Position numbers and translations under genes: made by a program. Below the pieces are notes generated by a model. The model was not told where the DNA came from. It ran no database searches and saw nothing but the letters and a program-made list of their open reading frames with translations. A stretch of DNA of 35,015 bases from Candidatus Thermokryptus mobilis (GTDB lineage: Bacteria; Bacteroidota; Ignavibacteria; Kryptoniales; Kryptoniaceae): assembly GCF_900070205.1 (NCBI RefSeq), contig NZ_FAOO01000001.1, forward strand, positions 152,574 to 187,588. Reading direction: 5' to 3'. Positions 2,612 through 34,972 of the stretch are shown here, in pieces (the first letter of the stretch is position 1; the number at the start of each line of letters is the position of its first letter).

Positions 2612-4900
2612 ATGAAAAAAGCAAAAGGTGGAAATTTCTTCGTAAAGCACAAATTTGCGCTGTCAATTTCAATTTTTGCATTTGGTTTGATTTTGATCTT
2701 AAGCATCGTCTCCTATTCCCCCAGGGATGAGGCAAATCTTCTATCCTTGTCAGAAATCGGTAAAATTTTCACCGGTGATGAACTTGTTCGCATAAAGCTT
2801 GAACGAACTAAAAATTGGCTTGGTTTCTTCGGAGCAAAACTTTCCTTCCTGTTTTTAAATTATCTTTTCGGTTACAGTTCTATTTTCATTGGGTTGATTC
2901 TTGTAATCTTAGGTGTGGCTTTATTTTTGGATAAATTATCAAAAAGCATTTTGAAATTTTCGTTTTATCTGTTGGTGTTTTCCTTCTTGCTTTCAATTTT
3001 TCTTGGAAATTTAAAGCTGATCTTCGGGACGGATGAATTTAGAGTTGAGGTCTGTGGCGGTGTTGGAATATATTTAGCTGATATTTTGACTAAACTTTTT
3101 GGTGAAATTGGTAGCATGATTTTGCTTCTTTTTGTGTTCTTTATCTTCATTGGCTTTGTAGTTGAAGTAAATTTTTATGACTTTGCTGCAAAAGCATCTG
3201 ATTCCCTATTAGGTCTTTGGTCAAAGTTAAAGCAACCGCAGAAAGTTAAACAAGCTAATATCAAAGCTGTAAAGCAAGTTGAGCTGAAAAACGCAAAGGG
3301 CACTGAAATTGTTATAACGACGCCAGAGAAAAAGGATTTTGAAAAAGTTGAACCTCAGAGGTCAAAGCCTTCCAAAATTCAACCTGGTGCTGTTAAGGAT
3401 GTTTCAGTAAGGAAAATCGACTTTAAACTTCCACCCGTTGAGTTACTTGAAGAATCCGATGAGGAGACAATCGCTGACGAAGAGGAACTTAATCAAAATG
3501 CTGAAATTTTGCGAAAGAAACTCGCAAATTTTGATATAGAGGTAGAGAAGATAAGTATAACGCCAGGACCCGTTGTAACCCTCTATGAAATTGTTCCAGC
3601 TGCTGATGTCAAGGTGAGGGAGATCGTTTCCCTTGCTGACGATATAGCGCTTGCTCTTGCTGCTCGTGGCATAAGGGTTATAGCCCCGATGCCCGGGAAG
3701 GGAACCGTTGGGATAGAGATTCCGAACAAGAAACCCTCAATTGTAAGGATAAGAAGTGTAATTGAATCACCTGAGTTTAAAAATTTTGAAGGCATTCTTC
3801 CAATAGCCATGGGCAAGACAATAACAGGTGAAGTTTATTGCGATGACCTTGCTAAGATGCCACATCTTTTAATAGGGGGAGCAACTGGCTCCGGAAAAAG
3901 CGTCGGGATAAATACGATAATTGTAAGCTTGCTTTACAAGTTGTATCCATCCGAGGTTAAGTTCGTCATAATTGATCCGAAAAAAGTTGAGCTTGTAAAT
4001 TACCGTAAGCTTGCAAATCATTATCTTGCCGTTTGTCCCGATGTTGATGAGGATATAATCACGACACCTGAAAACGCCATCGTTGTCTTGAGGAGCTTAG
4101 TCCTTGAGATGAATGAAAGATATGAGAAGTTTTCAAAAGCAGGTGTCAGAAATATTCAAGATTACAATGAAAAGGTTAAGCAGGGGAAAATAAAAAGCAC
4201 TGATGAAATTCAACATTTTGAACTTCCTTATATAGTTGTCATTATAGATGAGCTTGCTGATTTGATGCTTGTTGGTTCAACTGATGTTGAGGAGCCGATA
4301 ACACGGCTTGCTCAGCTTGCCAGGGGGGTTGGGATTCATCTTGTTGTTGCGACACAAAGACCATCTGTTGATGTCATAACTGGAATTATAAAAGCAAATT
4401 TCCCGACGAGGATTGCATATCAAGTTGCTTCAAAGGTTGATTCAAGAACTATACTTGATATGAACGGCGCTGAACAATTGATGGGAAGTGGGGATATGCT
4501 TTACTTGCCCGCCGGTGCAACGAAGCCGATAAGGATTCAAAATGCTTTTGTTTCGCCAGAGGAGGTTGAGAAAATAGTTGACTATATCTCAAGCCAACCA
4601 GGGTATGATAGACCGTATGAGCTTCCATCCATCGTTGAAAAGCAGAAAGTAGAGATTAACACCGGAGAAGATTTTGACGAATTATTTGAGGAAGCAGCGA
4701 GATTAGTCGTTAGGTTTGGGCAAGCATCAACATCTCTACTTCAAAGAAGATTAAGAATTGGTTATGCTAGAGCAGCTAGGATTATGGATCAGCTTGAAAG
4801 GGAGGGTATAGTTGGTCCACAGATTGAAGGTAATAAAGCAAGAGAAGTTTTAATTGGAAGTGAGAATGAACTTGATGAGATTTTGAAAAAAAATAGGTAG
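2612..4900 (+). CDS. ftsK: DNA translocase FtsK/SpoIIIE
   Basis: 762 residues. The N-terminal 190 residues hold about four membrane segments (near 14-34, 85-105, 113-133 and 165-185), followed by a short charged linker, so this is the compact FtsK type. The motor shows Walker A GATGSGKS near 423-430 and Walker B VIIDELADL with D546 and E547. The C-terminus carries the gamma winged-helix domain (ASTSLLQRRLRIGYARAARIMDQLE), which reads KOPS-like polar DNA sequences. The protein pumps chromosome termini through the septum and activates XerCD at dif. It ends with TAG, which is relevant to the interrupted cytochrome gene downstream. lolA follows 7 bases later with its own AGGAG site, so the two are probably co-transcribed. 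Confidence 0.97.
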   Translation: MKKAKGGNFFVKHKFALSISIFAFGLILILSIVSYSPRDEANLLSLSEIGKIFTGDELVRIKLERTKNWLGFFGAKLSFLFLNYLFGYSSIFIGLILVILGVALFLDKLSKSILKFSFYLLVFSFLLSIFLGNLKLIFGTDEFRVEVCGGVGIYLADILTKLFGEIGSMILLLFVFFIFIGFVVEVNFYDFAAKASDSLLGLWSKLKQPQKVKQANIKAVKQVELKNAKGTEIVITTPEKKDFEKVEPQRSKPSKIQPGAVKDVSVRKIDFKLPPVELLEESDEETIADEEELNQNAEILRKKLANFDIEVEKISITPGPVVTLYEIVPAADVKVREIVSLADDIALALAARGIRVIAPMPGKGTVGIEIPNKKPSIVRIRSVIESPEFKNFEGILPIAMGKTITGEVYCDDLAKMPHLLIGGATGSGKSVGINTIIVSLLYKLYPSEVKFVIIDPKKVELVNYRKLANHYLAVCPDVDEDIITTPENAIVVLRSLVLEMNERYEKFSKAGVRNIQDYNEKVKQGKIKSTDEIQHFELPYIVVIIDELADLMLVGSTDVEEPITRLAQLARGVGIHLVVATQRPSVDVITGIIKANFPTRIAYQVASKVDSRTILDMNGAEQLMGSGDMLYLPAGATKPIRIQNAFVSPEEVEKIVDYISSQPGYDRPYELPSIVEKQKVEINTGEDFDELFEEAARLVVRFGQASTSLLQRRLRIGYARAARIMDQLEREGIVGPQIEGNKAREVLIGSENELDEILKKNR

Positions 4901-5540: not shown

Positions 5541-5557
5541 ATAAAATTTGGGATTTG

Positions 5558-6574
5558 ATGAGGGATTTGAAAAATTTTTTAAGGTTAATCATCGGTTTTG
5601 GAATTGCGGGGGCGTTTCTTTATGTGTCTTTTAAGGGTTTAAACTGGGGTGATTTTCTAAAGGTTTTTGGAAGTGTCAATTATATTTATATCGTCTTAAT
5701 GTTGATTCTCATCATTTTGTCAAATTTTTTCAGGGCTTGGCGTTGGAAATATCTTTTAAAACCTGTAAAGCAAAACACATCGCTTGTTCACTTCTTTGAA
5801 GCAACGATGATAGGTTATCTCGCTAATAATATTTTCCCACGCTCCGGTGAGGTTTTAAAGGCTTATACGCTCAGCAATGATGAAAAAATTTCAAAAGCAT
5901 CAACCATAGCAAGTGTTTTACTTGAAAGAATAATAGATATAATATTTTCAATTTTCTTCTTTGGGATAGCGATTTTCCAAAACAGGAAGATATTTGACAA
6001 ACATTATCCCTGGCTTAGTAATGTTGTTTCTACAGTTAGCATTGCTATTTTTGTTATTTTGTTTTTGATTGTTTGTGTCTTGATATGGAAGGATGGGTTT
6101 TTAAGGGTGTTGGGCAAATTTATTGGTTTTTTCAGTCCTTCGTTAGCGGATAAGGTTGTGAAAATTATTGATTCGTTTATCTCCGGGTTTGAAGTTTTAA
6201 GATATAAGGGGGCTTATTGGCAAATTTTTGTGTTAAGCTTTTCAATTTATTCTTGTTATATTTTTGCTGCTTACTTTCCACTTTTTGCCTTCAACATAGA
6301 TAGATCAAAAATTAATCTTTTCACAGCGCTCGTTTTATTTGTCGTTTCAACGCTCGGCTTTATTCTTCCTACACCCGGTGGGATTGGAAGTTATCATTCT
6401 TTTATTACTGGTGCTCTTGTTGGGCTTTATGGTGTAAAACACGAAGTCGCCCTCGGGTATGCTGTTTTGACCCATGGCATTGGGTATATTGTAAATGGGC
6501 TATTTGGTTTTTATTTTGTCCTGAAAAAGCAAGTTAAAGTAATAAGTTTTATTAAGCGCTCTGTTGAAATGTGA
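5558..6574 (+). CDS. Lysylphosphatidylglycerol-synthase-type flippase-like membrane protein (UPF0104)
   Basis: 338 residues with roughly eight membrane segments. The family signature LPTPGGIGSYHSF near residues 270-283 and the FFRAWRWKYLL loop near 58-68 are typical of the UPF0104/AglD-like membrane family, which is related to the flippase domain of MprF. Members are associated with lipid or glycolipid translocation, but most lack an assigned substrate. The start is taken at the ATG at 5558; a TTG one codon upstream is less likely. The gene begins 17 bases after lolA, so it is probably in the same operon. The MprF lysyl-transferase domain is absent, so amino-acylation of lipids should not be inferred. 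Confidence 0.8.
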   Translation: MRDLKNFLRLIIGFGIAGAFLYVSFKGLNWGDFLKVFGSVNYIYIVLMLILIILSNFFRAWRWKYLLKPVKQNTSLVHFFEATMIGYLANNIFPRSGEVLKAYTLSNDEKISKASTIASVLLERIIDIIFSIFFFGIAIFQNRKIFDKHYPWLSNVVSTVSIAIFVILFLIVCVLIWKDGFLRVLGKFIGFFSPSLADKVVKIIDSFISGFEVLRYKGAYWQIFVLSFSIYSCYIFAAYFPLFAFNIDRSKINLFTALVLFVVSTLGFILPTPGGIGSYHSFITGALVGLYGVKHEVALGYAVLTHGIGYIVNGLFGFYFVLKKQVKVISFIKRSVEM

Positions 6575-6706: not shown

Positions 6707-8560
6707 ATGAGGGTAAAATTAACACTTTTATTCATTTTACTTACTCTTTCGTGCTTTTTGTTTTCTCAAACAAATTATGTTGGAACCGACAGGTGTTTGA
6801 CTTGTCACTCTTTTGTTAAGCCAGTTGCGAAGGATTACAAGCAGACGCTTCATACGAAAATTCATCAATTGCCCAGTTCAGAAACAGTCCGCGGGGATTT
6901 TACTCAAACAGTTTCAATGGGCTCATCTTATGGCAATGCCCAGGTTTAGCTTAGAACTGACGGGACAAAATGGTATGCTAAGCTCGTTCCAAGTTCAGGA
7001 ACTCCAGTTGAATATGAGATTGCCTTGGTGTATGGTTTTGGATGGAAACAGAGATATCTTGTGAAAATTGACAGCAGTTATTATATGCTTCCGATACAGT
7101 GGAACATGAAGGGTTATCTTGACAATTCAACGGGGACTTGGGTTCCTTATAATCCTGGAAATTGGTTTAATAGCGATGGGACCTTAAAAGCAACGAACAC
7201 GAATTCATTTAGAAGCAAATCTTATGATAAGAATTGTGTGGGTTGTCATGTTACAGGACTTAATATAACTAAATATGTGAGCGCTCAAAATGATACATTT
7301 TGGATTGCGAAGTGGGCTAACAACAACGACTTTAAAGATATGGTGATAGGATGTGAAAATTGCCATGGACCCGGGGCTGAACATGCTTTAGCAGGGGACA
7401 AGACAAAAATAATTAATCCAAAGAATTTATCATATGAAAGACAGCTTGAAGTATGTGGACAGTGCCACTTCCGTGGTTCAAGTTCGGGGGCTACTTATGA
7501 ATATGCCTGGGATGAAACAAACGATAAGGCGTATATCCCTGGGGATTCACTTGGTCTTTATGTCGTTCATAAACCGGGTCTTTGGCCAGATAATTATACA
7601 TCCCGTATGCATCATCAGCAATATAATGATATTTTAAAGTCAAAGCATTACACGAATCCATATCACAAGTTGACCTGCTTTGAATGCCATAATCCACATA
7701 AAGTTACTGGTAATCCGCATCAGATAGTTGATTCGCTTTATGTTCGGGATCAAAGTGGGACCTATATTTGGATAAAGACGGGGAATGATGATAATACCCT
7801 TTGTCTTGCTTGTCATGCTGGCTATGGTCCCTTTGCTGGTTTGACGAGGGCTATGATTAAAGATCCAGTTGCGAATAAGGATACAATCGCTGCGGTTGTT
7901 TCAAGGCATACACATCATAGTTATGATCCTCAAAATCAGAATAACACCGGTGGTTCTAGCAGATGCTCAAAGTGCCATATGGCGAAGACAGCTATAACAG
8001 CTAGGGCGTATGATATTCACAGCCATACTTTTGAAGTTATCTCCCCGAAGAAAACGCTTGATTATAAGAATGTCACAACTCCGACCAAGGGGATGATCAA
8101 CTCTTGTGCTATAAGTTGTCATAGGAATCCAACAGGGAATATACCGACTTTTGGTATACCGACGGATGCAAATCTTACGGATTGGACCGAGGCAACAGAT
8201 ATTCAACTGGCGGATACCCTTTGGAGGTATTTCAGGAGTTGGTGGCCAACGAAGGTTGAACAGATTGCAGGCATCGTAAGCAAATTTGAGTTAAGCCAGA
8301 ACTATCCGAATCCATTTAACCCAAGCACGACGATTGAGTTTTCAATAGCGAAGAGGAGCAATGTTAAGCTTGTGATTTATGATATAACGGGTAGAGTTGT
8401 AAGGACCTTGATTGATGGTCAGGAGTATGAGCCTGGTCTTTACAAGGTTCAGTGGAATGGGAAGAATGACTATGGTGAGTATGTTGCGAGTGGTGTTTAC
8501 ATTTACAGGTTGCAAGCTGGTAGTTTCACGGCGACGAGGAAGATGGTCCTTGCAAGATAA
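6707..8560 (+). CDS. Surface multiheme cytochrome c (cytochrome c554-like) with T9SS tail, interrupted by in-frame TAG
   Basis: One frame of 617 codons is broken only by TAG at 6947-6949 (codon 81). A signal peptide (1-20) is followed by heme sites CLTCH 30-34, CVGCH 177-181, CENCH 216-220, CGQCH 250-254, CFECH 324-328, CLACH 366-370 and CSKCH 420-424, plus an atypical CAISCH (CX3CH) at 467-472. Residues about 527-617 form a T9SS sorting domain (YPNPFNPSTTIEF, GVYIYRL, RKMVLAR). The first heme lies before the TAG and the rest after it. The sequence across the stop reads smoothly in frame (NAQV-stop-LRTDGTKWYAKL) and keeps the pattern of this cytochrome family, including the downstream YGFGWKQRYLVKI. 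So this is one gene with a nonsense codon, not two genes. The predicted role is extracellular electron transfer at the cell surface. A pseudogene, a sequencing error or readthrough are all possible. The only start after the TAG that keeps most of the protein, a TTG at 7025, would lose the signal peptide and first heme. Confidence 0.85.
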
Positions 8561-8606: not shown

Positions 8607-8614
8607 TTTGTTTG

Positions 8615-8688
8615 CGGAGCCGACGGGGCTCGAACCCGCAACCTCCAGCGTGACAGGCTGGCGTGCTAACCGATTGCACCACGGCTCC
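8615..8688 (-). tRNA. tRNA-Asp (anticodon GTC)
   Basis: The minus strand folds as a 74-nt cloverleaf. The acceptor stem GGAGCCG pairs with CGGCTCC. The anticodon arm is CCAGC-CTGTCAC-GCTGG with anticodon GTC, and the T loop is GGTTCGAGC-like. The discriminator base is G, as usual for tRNA-Asp. The 3' CCA is not encoded. Confidence 0.97.
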
Positions 8689-27042: not shown

Positions 27043-30000
27043 ATGAGACGACTTATCCTCGCTTTAATTCTCCTCAACACCTTGTGCGTGGCGCAGGTGA
27101 AGGAAATCAGAATAAAAATTTCAAAAGATGACACACTTATAAACCTTCCGCATAGGTTCATCATCCCCGAAAGTGAAATTTTAAAAATTGACTCAATTTT
27201 AATTCTCCCAGGAATTCACTACACAATTGACTATGGAAGCGGGAAGATAATTCTTAACAAAAGCCTCTTGCATAAGTTTGAATCGGAAGTTGAAGTGTAT
27301 GTCTATTATAAAGCAATACCGATTGAGGATAAATTTTTTAAATACAGAAAAATAACTTCATCGGACTCAAATCCGTCAGAAGGTGAAACCCATTTAATTG
27401 AGGCAAAAAATGATGCGTCAACTCCCTACCTCGGCAATATCAGAAAAAACGGGAGCATCGTCAGGGGATTTACGCTCGGGAGTAATCGCGACCTTACACT
27501 TCAATCTGGTTTTAACCTTCAACTTTCGGGAAACTTAACAAAGGATGTTGAAGTTGTCGCATCGTTAACCGATGAAAACATCCCGATCCAGCCAGAGGGG
27601 AACACCCAAACGCTTCAGGAGATAGACAAAATTTTTATACAAGTGAAATCAAAAAATTTATTTGCGACATTTGGCGATTATGATATTGGATACCAATTAA
27701 GCGATGATAAAAATTTATACTTCAAGGATGCACCCGAATTCGCCTTTGTCAGAAGAAGATTGCAGGGTGGAAAATTTCAAGGTGAGCTTGAACAAGGATT
27801 TTTAAAGACAAGGAACACATTCACCATCGCTTCATCCCGAGGTAAATTCGCAACGAATTATTTTAACGGAGTTGATGGCTTACAAGGTCCATATAAACTG
27901 ACGGGTCAAAACGGCGAGAGAGATATAATCGTCATAGCTGGAACTGAAAAAGTTTATGTTGACGGCGAAATTATGACCCGTGGAGAAAGCAACGATTATG
28001 TGATTGATTACTCAACTGCTGAGATAACATTTACGCCAAACCGACTCATCACCTCAGCGTCAAGGATAACAGTTGACTTCCAATACACTGATAGAAAATA
28101 TGCACGAAATTTTTTCGGCTTCGTCTCTGACAATCTACTTTTTGATGAAAAATTTAATTTATCGGTGTCATATTTTTACGATGCTGATAATAAAAACGCC
28201 CCAATTGATATTGCCTTGACACAATCTGATATTGAGATATTGCGATCAAGCGGAGACAACCCATTTAAAGCAATAAAAAGTGGCGTTAACTTTGTTGGAT
28301 TTGACTCATCAAAAGGGATCGGCAGGGGTCAATATGTCAAAAAGGATACGCTTATTGATTCAACAAGAGTTGAAATCTTTGTCTATTCACCAGGGGATAA
28401 AGAAGCGCTTTACTCAGTGAGCTTTTCTTATGTTGGACCTGGCAAGGGTGATTACATACGCAAAGGGATAGGAAAATACGAGTTCGTCGGGAAAAATAAA
28501 GGTGAATATCTACCAATTGTTTTCATACCTGCCCCCCAATCTTCACAACTTTTTGATCTAAAAGCGAAATACAAAACAGAAAAATTTGAATTCTTGCTTG
28601 AAACGGGGATTAGCAATTTTGATAAAAACCAGTTTTCAAATCTTGATGACGGAGATAATCGCGGGTTGGCGCTGAAGTATGGTCTGGCTTATTCAAGTGG
28701 GGAGATATCGGATAAGGGCTTGAGAAAAATTAATTTCAACTTGTTCCAAAGGCAAAGAAATAAAAATTTCGCCGGGATAGACAGATACAACGCTGTTGAA
28801 TTCAACCGAAAATGGAACTTGATGAACGAAAGCGAAAACCTCAACGAGTCAATAATTGAATCATCTTTACAAATTGAACTCTTTAAAAAAAGCTCGCTTG
28901 TCGGGAGCTTCGGCGTTCTGAAAAACGAAGACAAATTCAAAACCAACAGAACCACATTTGAAGTTAAAATTGAAGAAGATAAACTTCCTGAGTTTAAAAA
29001 TGTCGCTGAGATTTTAACTTCAAAATCAAGCGATTTAAACTCTAAATGGCTAAGGGATAAAGGTGGTGCAAGGTACAAGGTTGGTTTTCTCTCGCCATTT
29101 GTCAATTATGAAGCGGAGTTGAAAACCGTAACAAGGGGTGATTCTTTAAGCCAGGAAAGTTTTAGATTCGCAAGGTTAATCCCTGGCGTTTCATTTCATT
29201 TCAAGAAATTAACATTTGAATTTTCATATGAAACAAGGTTTGATGATGCTGTAAGAGGTGGAAGCTTCTCAAGGTCAAGTGTAACGAGAAATCAAAACTA
29301 TAAATTGAAATTTGAAAGCGATAAGTTTAGTTTGAACACCGATTTGACATTCAATAAAAAATTCTTTACGGATGGCGACACAAAAAGGGAAATCAACAAT
29401 GCTATAGCAAGATTACAAGGCAGGGCAGAGATTTTTAACAGAACCATAAGGTCTAGTTTTATCTACCGAGCGATGACGAGAATGGTGACAAGACTTGAAC
29501 CTATTTTTATAAAAGTTCAACCCGGAACTGGAAACTACAGGTATCTTGGCGATCTCAATCGTAACGGGATTCAAGACCCGAATGAATTTGAATTGACGAA
29601 ATTTGACGGTGACTACATCATGTTCACAGTCCCAGGAAGCGAATTCATACCGACAGCAAATGTTGAGGCAAGTTTAAATGTTAGATTCAACCCGGGAAGG
29701 CTAATCAAGATTCTATCGTTTTTTTCAAGCGATACATATCTTCAGGTCTCTGAAAGCAGCACCGAACCATGGCAAAAAATTTACCTTTTGAATCTGAGAT
29801 ACTTTCAACAGGAAAACAAAACGATAAACGGCACTATGACAATCAGACAAGATATTTTTCTTTTTGAAAACAACAGAAAGTTTAACTTGAGATATAGATT
29901 TTTAAAGACGGGCTCGCTGTATTCTTATAACATTGCAATTAGGAAGACATCAAACATTGAGAACACAATACGAGTAAGATGGTATCCCGATGAAGAGCTT

Positions 30001-30462
30001 GGATTTCAATGGGAGGTTCTAAGCAAAGCGAAGAAATCAATTGGCGGATTTAAATTGGGAGATTCCTTTGAGATACAAAGCAGGGGATTGAACTTTGATA
30101 TCTTTTATAAACCGTTTACCTTCATTGAGTTAAGTTGTGGGATAGGAGTGACAAGGAACAAGAATTTAATGAACGATAGAAGGGCTGATTTAAATCGTCA
30201 AAGTGTTAAGTTCGGTTGGCTTTTTATCAGCAGAGGTAGAATTGATATTGAGGTTGAAAGACACGAAGCCATCACAAGCGGCGCTGGAGATATTGCTTAT
30301 GAGCTCGTTGAAGGAAACTATCAAGGGAAAAATTTGATGATCCGGTTAACAGGGTCTTACAATGTTGGGGATTATATTCAACTTAACGGAAGCTATAACG
30401 CCCGCCTAACACCAAACTCAACTGTTCATATCGCACAAGTTGAGATAAGGGTTTATTTTTAA
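27043..30462 (+). CDS. Large outer-membrane beta-barrel protein of unknown function
   Basis: 1139 residues. A signal peptide (1-17, ending CVAQ) is followed by a beta-rich periplasmic or surface part and a long C-terminal barrel (many short amphipathic strands from about residue 350) that ends in RVYF, a terminal Phe. The motif Y-x-I-D-Y-x-x-x-x-I occurs at about 60-69 and 319-328 (YTIDYGSGKI and YVIDYSTAEI), indicating duplicated beta domains. An EF-hand-like loop D-x-N-x-N-G-x-x-D-x-x-E spans D837-E848. I do not recognise a named family. It may be an envelope receptor or export component. The neighbouring polysaccharide genes on the other strand do not prove a shared role. Confidence 0.8.
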   Translation: MRRLILALILLNTLCVAQVKEIRIKISKDDTLINLPHRFIIPESEILKIDSILILPGIHYTIDYGSGKIILNKSLLHKFESEVEVYVYYKAIPIEDKFFKYRKITSSDSNPSEGETHLIEAKNDASTPYLGNIRKNGSIVRGFTLGSNRDLTLQSGFNLQLSGNLTKDVEVVASLTDENIPIQPEGNTQTLQEIDKIFIQVKSKNLFATFGDYDIGYQLSDDKNLYFKDAPEFAFVRRRLQGGKFQGELEQGFLKTRNTFTIASSRGKFATNYFNGVDGLQGPYKLTGQNGERDIIVIAGTEKVYVDGEIMTRGESNDYVIDYSTAEITFTPNRLITSASRITVDFQYTDRKYARNFFGFVSDNLLFDEKFNLSVSYFYDADNKNAPIDIALTQSDIEILRSSGDNPFKAIKSGVNFVGFDSSKGIGRGQYVKKDTLIDSTRVEIFVYSPGDKEALYSVSFSYVGPGKGDYIRKGIGKYEFVGKNKGEYLPIVFIPAPQSSQLFDLKAKYKTEKFEFLLETGISNFDKNQFSNLDDGDNRGLALKYGLAYSSGEISDKGLRKINFNLFQRQRNKNFAGIDRYNAVEFNRKWNLMNESENLNESIIESSLQIELFKKSSLVGSFGVLKNEDKFKTNRTTFEVKIEEDKLPEFKNVAEILTSKSSDLNSKWLRDKGGARYKVGFLSPFVNYEAELKTVTRGDSLSQESFRFARLIPGVSFHFKKLTFEFSYETRFDDAVRGGSFSRSSVTRNQNYKLKFESDKFSLNTDLTFNKKFFTDGDTKREINNAIARLQGRAEIFNRTIRSSFIYRAMTRMVTRLEPIFIKVQPGTGNYRYLGDLNRNGIQDPNEFELTKFDGDYIMFTVPGSEFIPTANVEASLNVRFNPGRLIKILSFFSSDTYLQVSESSTEPWQKIYLLNLRYFQQENKTINGTMTIRQDIFLFENNRKFNLRYRFLKTGSLYSYNIAIRKTSNIENTIRVRWYPDEELGFQWEVLSKAKKSIGGFKLGDSFEIQSRGLNFDIFYKPFTFIELSCGIGVTRNKNLMNDRRADLNRQSVKFGWLFISRGRIDIEVERHEAITSGAGDIAYELVEGNYQGKNLMIRLTGSYNVGDYIQLNGSYNARLTPNSTVHIAQVEIRVYF

Positions 30463-34555: not shown

Positions 34556-34972
34556 ATGAAAATATATCTTTCTTGTCCAACAAATTTTGAAGAAAAATTA
34601 TCGCAAAAGAGACCATTAATCCATCAAGCTGTCCATATGGTTTTTATACTTTCTATTCTTTTCGTCTCTTGCAAGAGCGAAGCTATAACCCCATCTTTAA
34701 ATAATCCACCAGTTATAGAAAAAATAGAAGTTAAACCATCTACAATCAGGGTTTACCAGACGGCAACCATCACGGCATATGCATCAGATCCAGATGGTGA
34801 TGATCTGACATTTGAATGGGAGGCTACGCTCGGCTACATTTACGGCAGTGGTGGAACTGTAAAGTATTCCGCTTCCTTGTGTTGCGCTGGAACAAATACA
34901 ATAAAACTTACAGTTAAAGATGGTCGCGGTGGTTCAGCAACTGGAACAGCGATGATTACAGTTCTGCCGTAG
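34556..34972 (+). CDS. PKD-domain putative lipoprotein
   Basis: 138 residues. An unusually long N-terminal extension precedes the hydrophobic stretch MVFILSILFVSCKSE, whose FVSC fits a lipobox with the lipidated Cys at about residue 39. Residues about 52-138 form one PKD/Ig-like beta domain (YQTATITAYASDPDGDDLTFEWEAT and NTIKLTVKDGRGGSATGTAMITV). PKD domains mediate binding at the surface. The start ATG has a strong AGGAG eight bases upstream, although an internal ATG at 34637 would give a more standard signal peptide. It follows merA by 19 bases. A link to mercury is not evident. The gene ends in TAG. Confidence 0.7.
   Translation: MKIYLSCPTNFEEKLSQKRPLIHQAVHMVFILSILFVSCKSEAITPSLNNPPVIEKIEVKPSTIRVYQTATITAYASDPDGDDLTFEWEATLGYIYGSGGTVKYSASLCCAGTNTIKLTVKDGRGGSATGTAMITVLP

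Follow-up and report, generated by a model that had tools for sequence, protein, structure and literature searches.

The window analysed here, a stretch of 35,015 nucleotides from Candidatus Thermokryptus mobilis, carries on its forward strand, at 6707-8560, a predicted gene for a multihaem c-type cytochrome whose reading frame is broken by one in-frame TAG. The source genome is a draft (2.42 Mb, 35 contigs, 97.5% complete) of a hot-spring Candidatus Kryptonia bacterium, with Candidatus Kryptonium thompsonii JGI-4 and the Candidatus Thermokryptus draft RSWP10 as its closest named relatives, and we compared it with six other genomes of the genus (G001-G006), one genome per species. Translation bore out the initial annotation, which had described the frame as continuous apart from the TAG: it runs for 618 codons, and its sole internal stop lies at 6947-6949, i.e., codon 81. 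A chance open frame is unlikely, since each of the other five frames across the same interval holds 21-63 stops. The parts of the gene, with the ratio of nonsynonymous to synonymous substitution rates given as dN/dS and the type IX secretion system as T9SS, are as follows.

6707 to 6946, + strand: N-terminal part of the cytochrome frame, with a signal peptide-like start and the first CxxCH at residues 30-34; an 80-residue product if the TAG terminates.
6947 to 6949, + strand: in-frame TAG, codon 81; CGT (Arg) in G001 and G004, a variable column in the family, and a stop in no covering relative.
6950 to 8257, + strand: remaining multihaem domain with seven haem-binding motifs; dN/dS 0.04-0.08 against genus relatives.
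8258 to 8560, + strand: T9SS type A sorting tail (Por_Secre_tail / FlgD_ig, by profile matches), with the stop TAA.

The frame holds eight haem-binding motifs in total, seven CxxCH (residues 30, 177, 216, 250, 324, 366 and 420) and one CxxxCH (CAISCH, residue 467), one of them upstream of codon 81 and seven downstream. Its C-terminus matches the T9SS type A sorting domain above cut-off (TIGR04183, 39.8 bits against a cut-off of 23; PF18962, 30.3 bits against 27), and FlgD_ig also matches there in the profile search. Because the eight motifs span the stop and the sorting tail scores above cut-off, 6707-8560 is, judged from its sequence, one gene encoding a secreted, T9SS-tailed cytochrome with eight haems, the protein being probably located at the cell surface. 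That both halves make up one protein, as had been claimed at the outset, is further supported by the orthologues in G001 and G004, which are complete single frames of 616 residues, colinear across the stop and 83-85% identical, and which have CGT (Arg) at codon 81.

The stop itself appears to be confined to this copy. In a class-wide profile search of 294 genomes, which returned about 20 full or near-full family members, an internal stop was found only in the window copy. The initial annotation had regarded a TAG conserved in relatives as a pointer to recoding, and by that measure recoding fails, since no relative covering codon 81 has the stop; the absence of the disabling lesion from the orthologues that cover the codon is the pattern by which a recent unitary pseudogene is recognised. 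The closest copy, that of G006 (93% identical), lies on a contig that starts just past codon 81, so that the codon is not covered, and a search of G006 for the missing N-terminal piece of the cytochrome found none. As for the lost residue, the earlier suggestion that a CAG-to-TAG change had removed a Gln found no support: the two closest covering orthologues have Arg, and the family alignment shows R, E, F, Y, I, S, T, L or A at this column in the 15 relatives with a residue there. A Gln appears in one distant relative according to one alignment, in which place another alignment has a gap. Since the column is so variable, the original residue cannot be read from the family, and Gln would be one possibility only.

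Around the locus, two neighbours frame the gene.

5555 to 6574, + strand: upstream neighbour, an LPG_synthase_TM flippase-like protein (profile match), syntenic in the genus.
8614 to 8688, - strand: downstream neighbour, tRNA-Asp(GTC), which in G002, G003 and G005 lies immediately next to the flippase gene.

G001 has its cytochrome orthologue at the same place, flanked by the flippase-like gene and tRNA-Asp. The gene is accessory within the genus, because it is absent between these two neighbours in three of the six other genomes (G002, G003 and G005).

Nothing downstream of the stop clearly points to relaxed constraint. In the comparison with G006, the stretch running from the stop through the haem domain has a dN/dS of 0.038; against G001 and G004 it has 0.056-0.081, the downstream values against these two ranging over 0.054-0.082 in all. 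Between the signal peptide and the stop dN/dS is 0.07-0.08, and in all these comparisons dS is near saturation. When lineage-specific changes were counted with two outgroups, the window copy had 7 amino-acid and 21 synonymous changes and the G006 copy 6 and 39, respectively. With the downstream part thus constrained, and with no excess of amino-acid changes over the sister G006, the stop would be spurious, very young or subject to readthrough, three cases among which a low dN/dS does not by itself discriminate.

How often such lesions occur was estimated by comparing the proteins of about 1.2 Mb of G004 with about 1.2 Mb of the source genome, and the reverse, over about 343 comparable genes of at least 200 residues each; on inspection we discounted most of the other stops, since they lie in frames that are short and probably antisense or in spurious N-terminal extensions of open reading frames. 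A scan of coding potential for interrupted genes lacked sensitivity and missed the cytochrome gene itself. In the source genome the comparison gave one nonsense lesion in a real gene, that of the cytochrome, together with three apparent frameshifts, and in G004 it gave no apparent frameshift. The first of the three is an apparent one-base deletion in gcvT (glycine cleavage T protein; G000:C2 ~57,400), leaving two frames that are both well conserved. The second, likewise an apparent one-base deletion, falls between the polymerase and PHP domains of polX (DNA polymerase X; G000:C4 ~66,935), a break that could instead be a split into two proteins, and the third lies 30 residues before the end of the gene for cytochrome oxidase subunit III (G000:C6 ~109,788). 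In the sister G004, lysA (diaminopimelate decarboxylase; C8 ~217,724) is interrupted by an in-frame TAA while the rest of its frame is conserved. That such lesions fall in housekeeping genes suggests that part of them are draft errors. At this base rate, with one nonsense lesion and three frameshifts in about 343 genes and the TAA of lysA besides, a single stop among several hundred genes is nothing unusual and a lone lesion is to be expected.

Taken together, we are strongly inclined to read codon 81 as an ordinary, sporadic, single-codon nonsense lesion, real or artefactual, in an accessory cytochrome gene. That it is a very recent mutation in the organism has about an even chance; in this case the population would have just acquired the stop, giving a unitary pseudogene too young for decay. 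That the TAG is a wrong base in the draft assembly, or a minor variant that entered it, is a serious possibility, if a little short of even. Neither would be surprising, and both had been left standing by the initial annotation, in agreement with the absence of the stop from covering relatives and the constraint kept downstream. Should the base be real, release factor 1 (RF1) would presumably end translation after codon 80, the secreted product would be a fragment with one haem, lacking the remaining seven as well as the T9SS tail, and a surface electron-transfer protein would probably have been lost in the strain. Some points weigh against this interpretation: the base at codon 81 has been seen in one genome of the species only; the frameshifts show that base-level lesions exist in the assembly, which is no proof that the substitution at codon 81 is an error; and, with the G006 contig starting after the codon, the stop may be shared by the two closest lineages.

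A real stop would mean that a Kryptonia lineage has recently lost an accessory protein of surface electron transfer. More generally, the case counsels caution: with a few lesions per several hundred genes here, housekeeping ones included, a lone in-frame stop in a constrained gene lies within the base rate of such draft assemblies and does not on its own speak for recoding.

The same constraint downstream of the stop could be explained by functional readthrough, in which a near-cognate tRNA sometimes decodes UAG, so that some full-length cytochrome is made at a low level and the stop dampens expression. Low dN/dS around in-frame stops has been described from across bacteria (Belinky et al. 2021, PMC7918605), and our case resembles those in having a single in-frame stop in an otherwise constrained gene, with dN/dS well under 1 around it. 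That study, however, required the same stop in at least two genomes, whereas here it was seen in one only and, as far as the codon is covered, was not shared: neither G001 and G004 nor any other family member covering the codon has it. Moreover, a very recent stop predicts low dN/dS equally well, RF1 is present (TIGR00019, 545.8 bits), and the RNA fold after the stop is not unusual (z = 0.23). We therefore regard readthrough as improbable, and it is very improbable that the stop is real, fixed in the species (perhaps common to G006) and leaky, setting a low level of surface cytochrome.

Recoding or reassignment of TAG, whether through a suppressor tRNA, through pyrrolysine or through a changed code across the genome, has in our view next to no chance. 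TAG is indeed the rarest terminal stop, yet it ends 25 of the 396 frames of at least 300 codons in 814 kb of the source genome, that of ftsK among them, and RF1 is present. ARAGORN, run on the 44 tRNA loci, gave no CTA anticodon (CUA in the tRNA), although this 97.5% complete genome may have a few more tRNAs in its unassembled portion, and no other real gene interrupted by TAG turned up in the 1.2 Mb compared. Within the window, ftsK ends in TAG at 4898-4900, as the initial annotation had it, and so does one other long frame (34556-34972); the frame of 1139 residues at 27043-30462 ends in TAA. The earlier view that general reassignment is unlikely thus stands, and amber suppression is not supported either.

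A signal peptide is needed both for haem attachment in c-type cytochrome maturation and for T9SS export. Two separate genes, an 80-residue one-haem protein and a second protein from an internal start such as the TTG at 7025, are hardly credible, as the orthologues are single continuous proteins and the second part would be without a signal peptide.

With regard to protein family, the window cytochrome reached no named multihaem family at cut-off. Membership in the GSU2203 family (decahaem, NF041028; 61.7 bits against a cut-off of 325) and in the DmsE family (decahaem, TIGR03508; 46.1 bits against 192) was rejected, both scores, from partial matches in the haem region, being far below the curated cut-offs; unlike these decahaem cytochromes, the protein has eight haem motifs and a T9SS tail. 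A search of viral contigs gave no relative, and a literature search on stop codons in multihaem cytochromes found nothing. A structure prediction from six sequences, which placed residue 81 loosely in a strand, had a predicted local distance difference test (pLDDT) score of 38 and was not used. The best sequence match among solved structures is OcwA of Thermincola potens (PDB 6I5B; residues 175-472, E 1.7e-12), which likewise comes from a thermophile and is a c-type cytochrome with several haems. It differs in carrying nine of them, in its C-terminal three-helix bundle and in its Gram-positive host (PMC6703420); the window protein has a T9SS tail and eight motifs. The match, though partial, is in keeping with a putative role in electron transfer.
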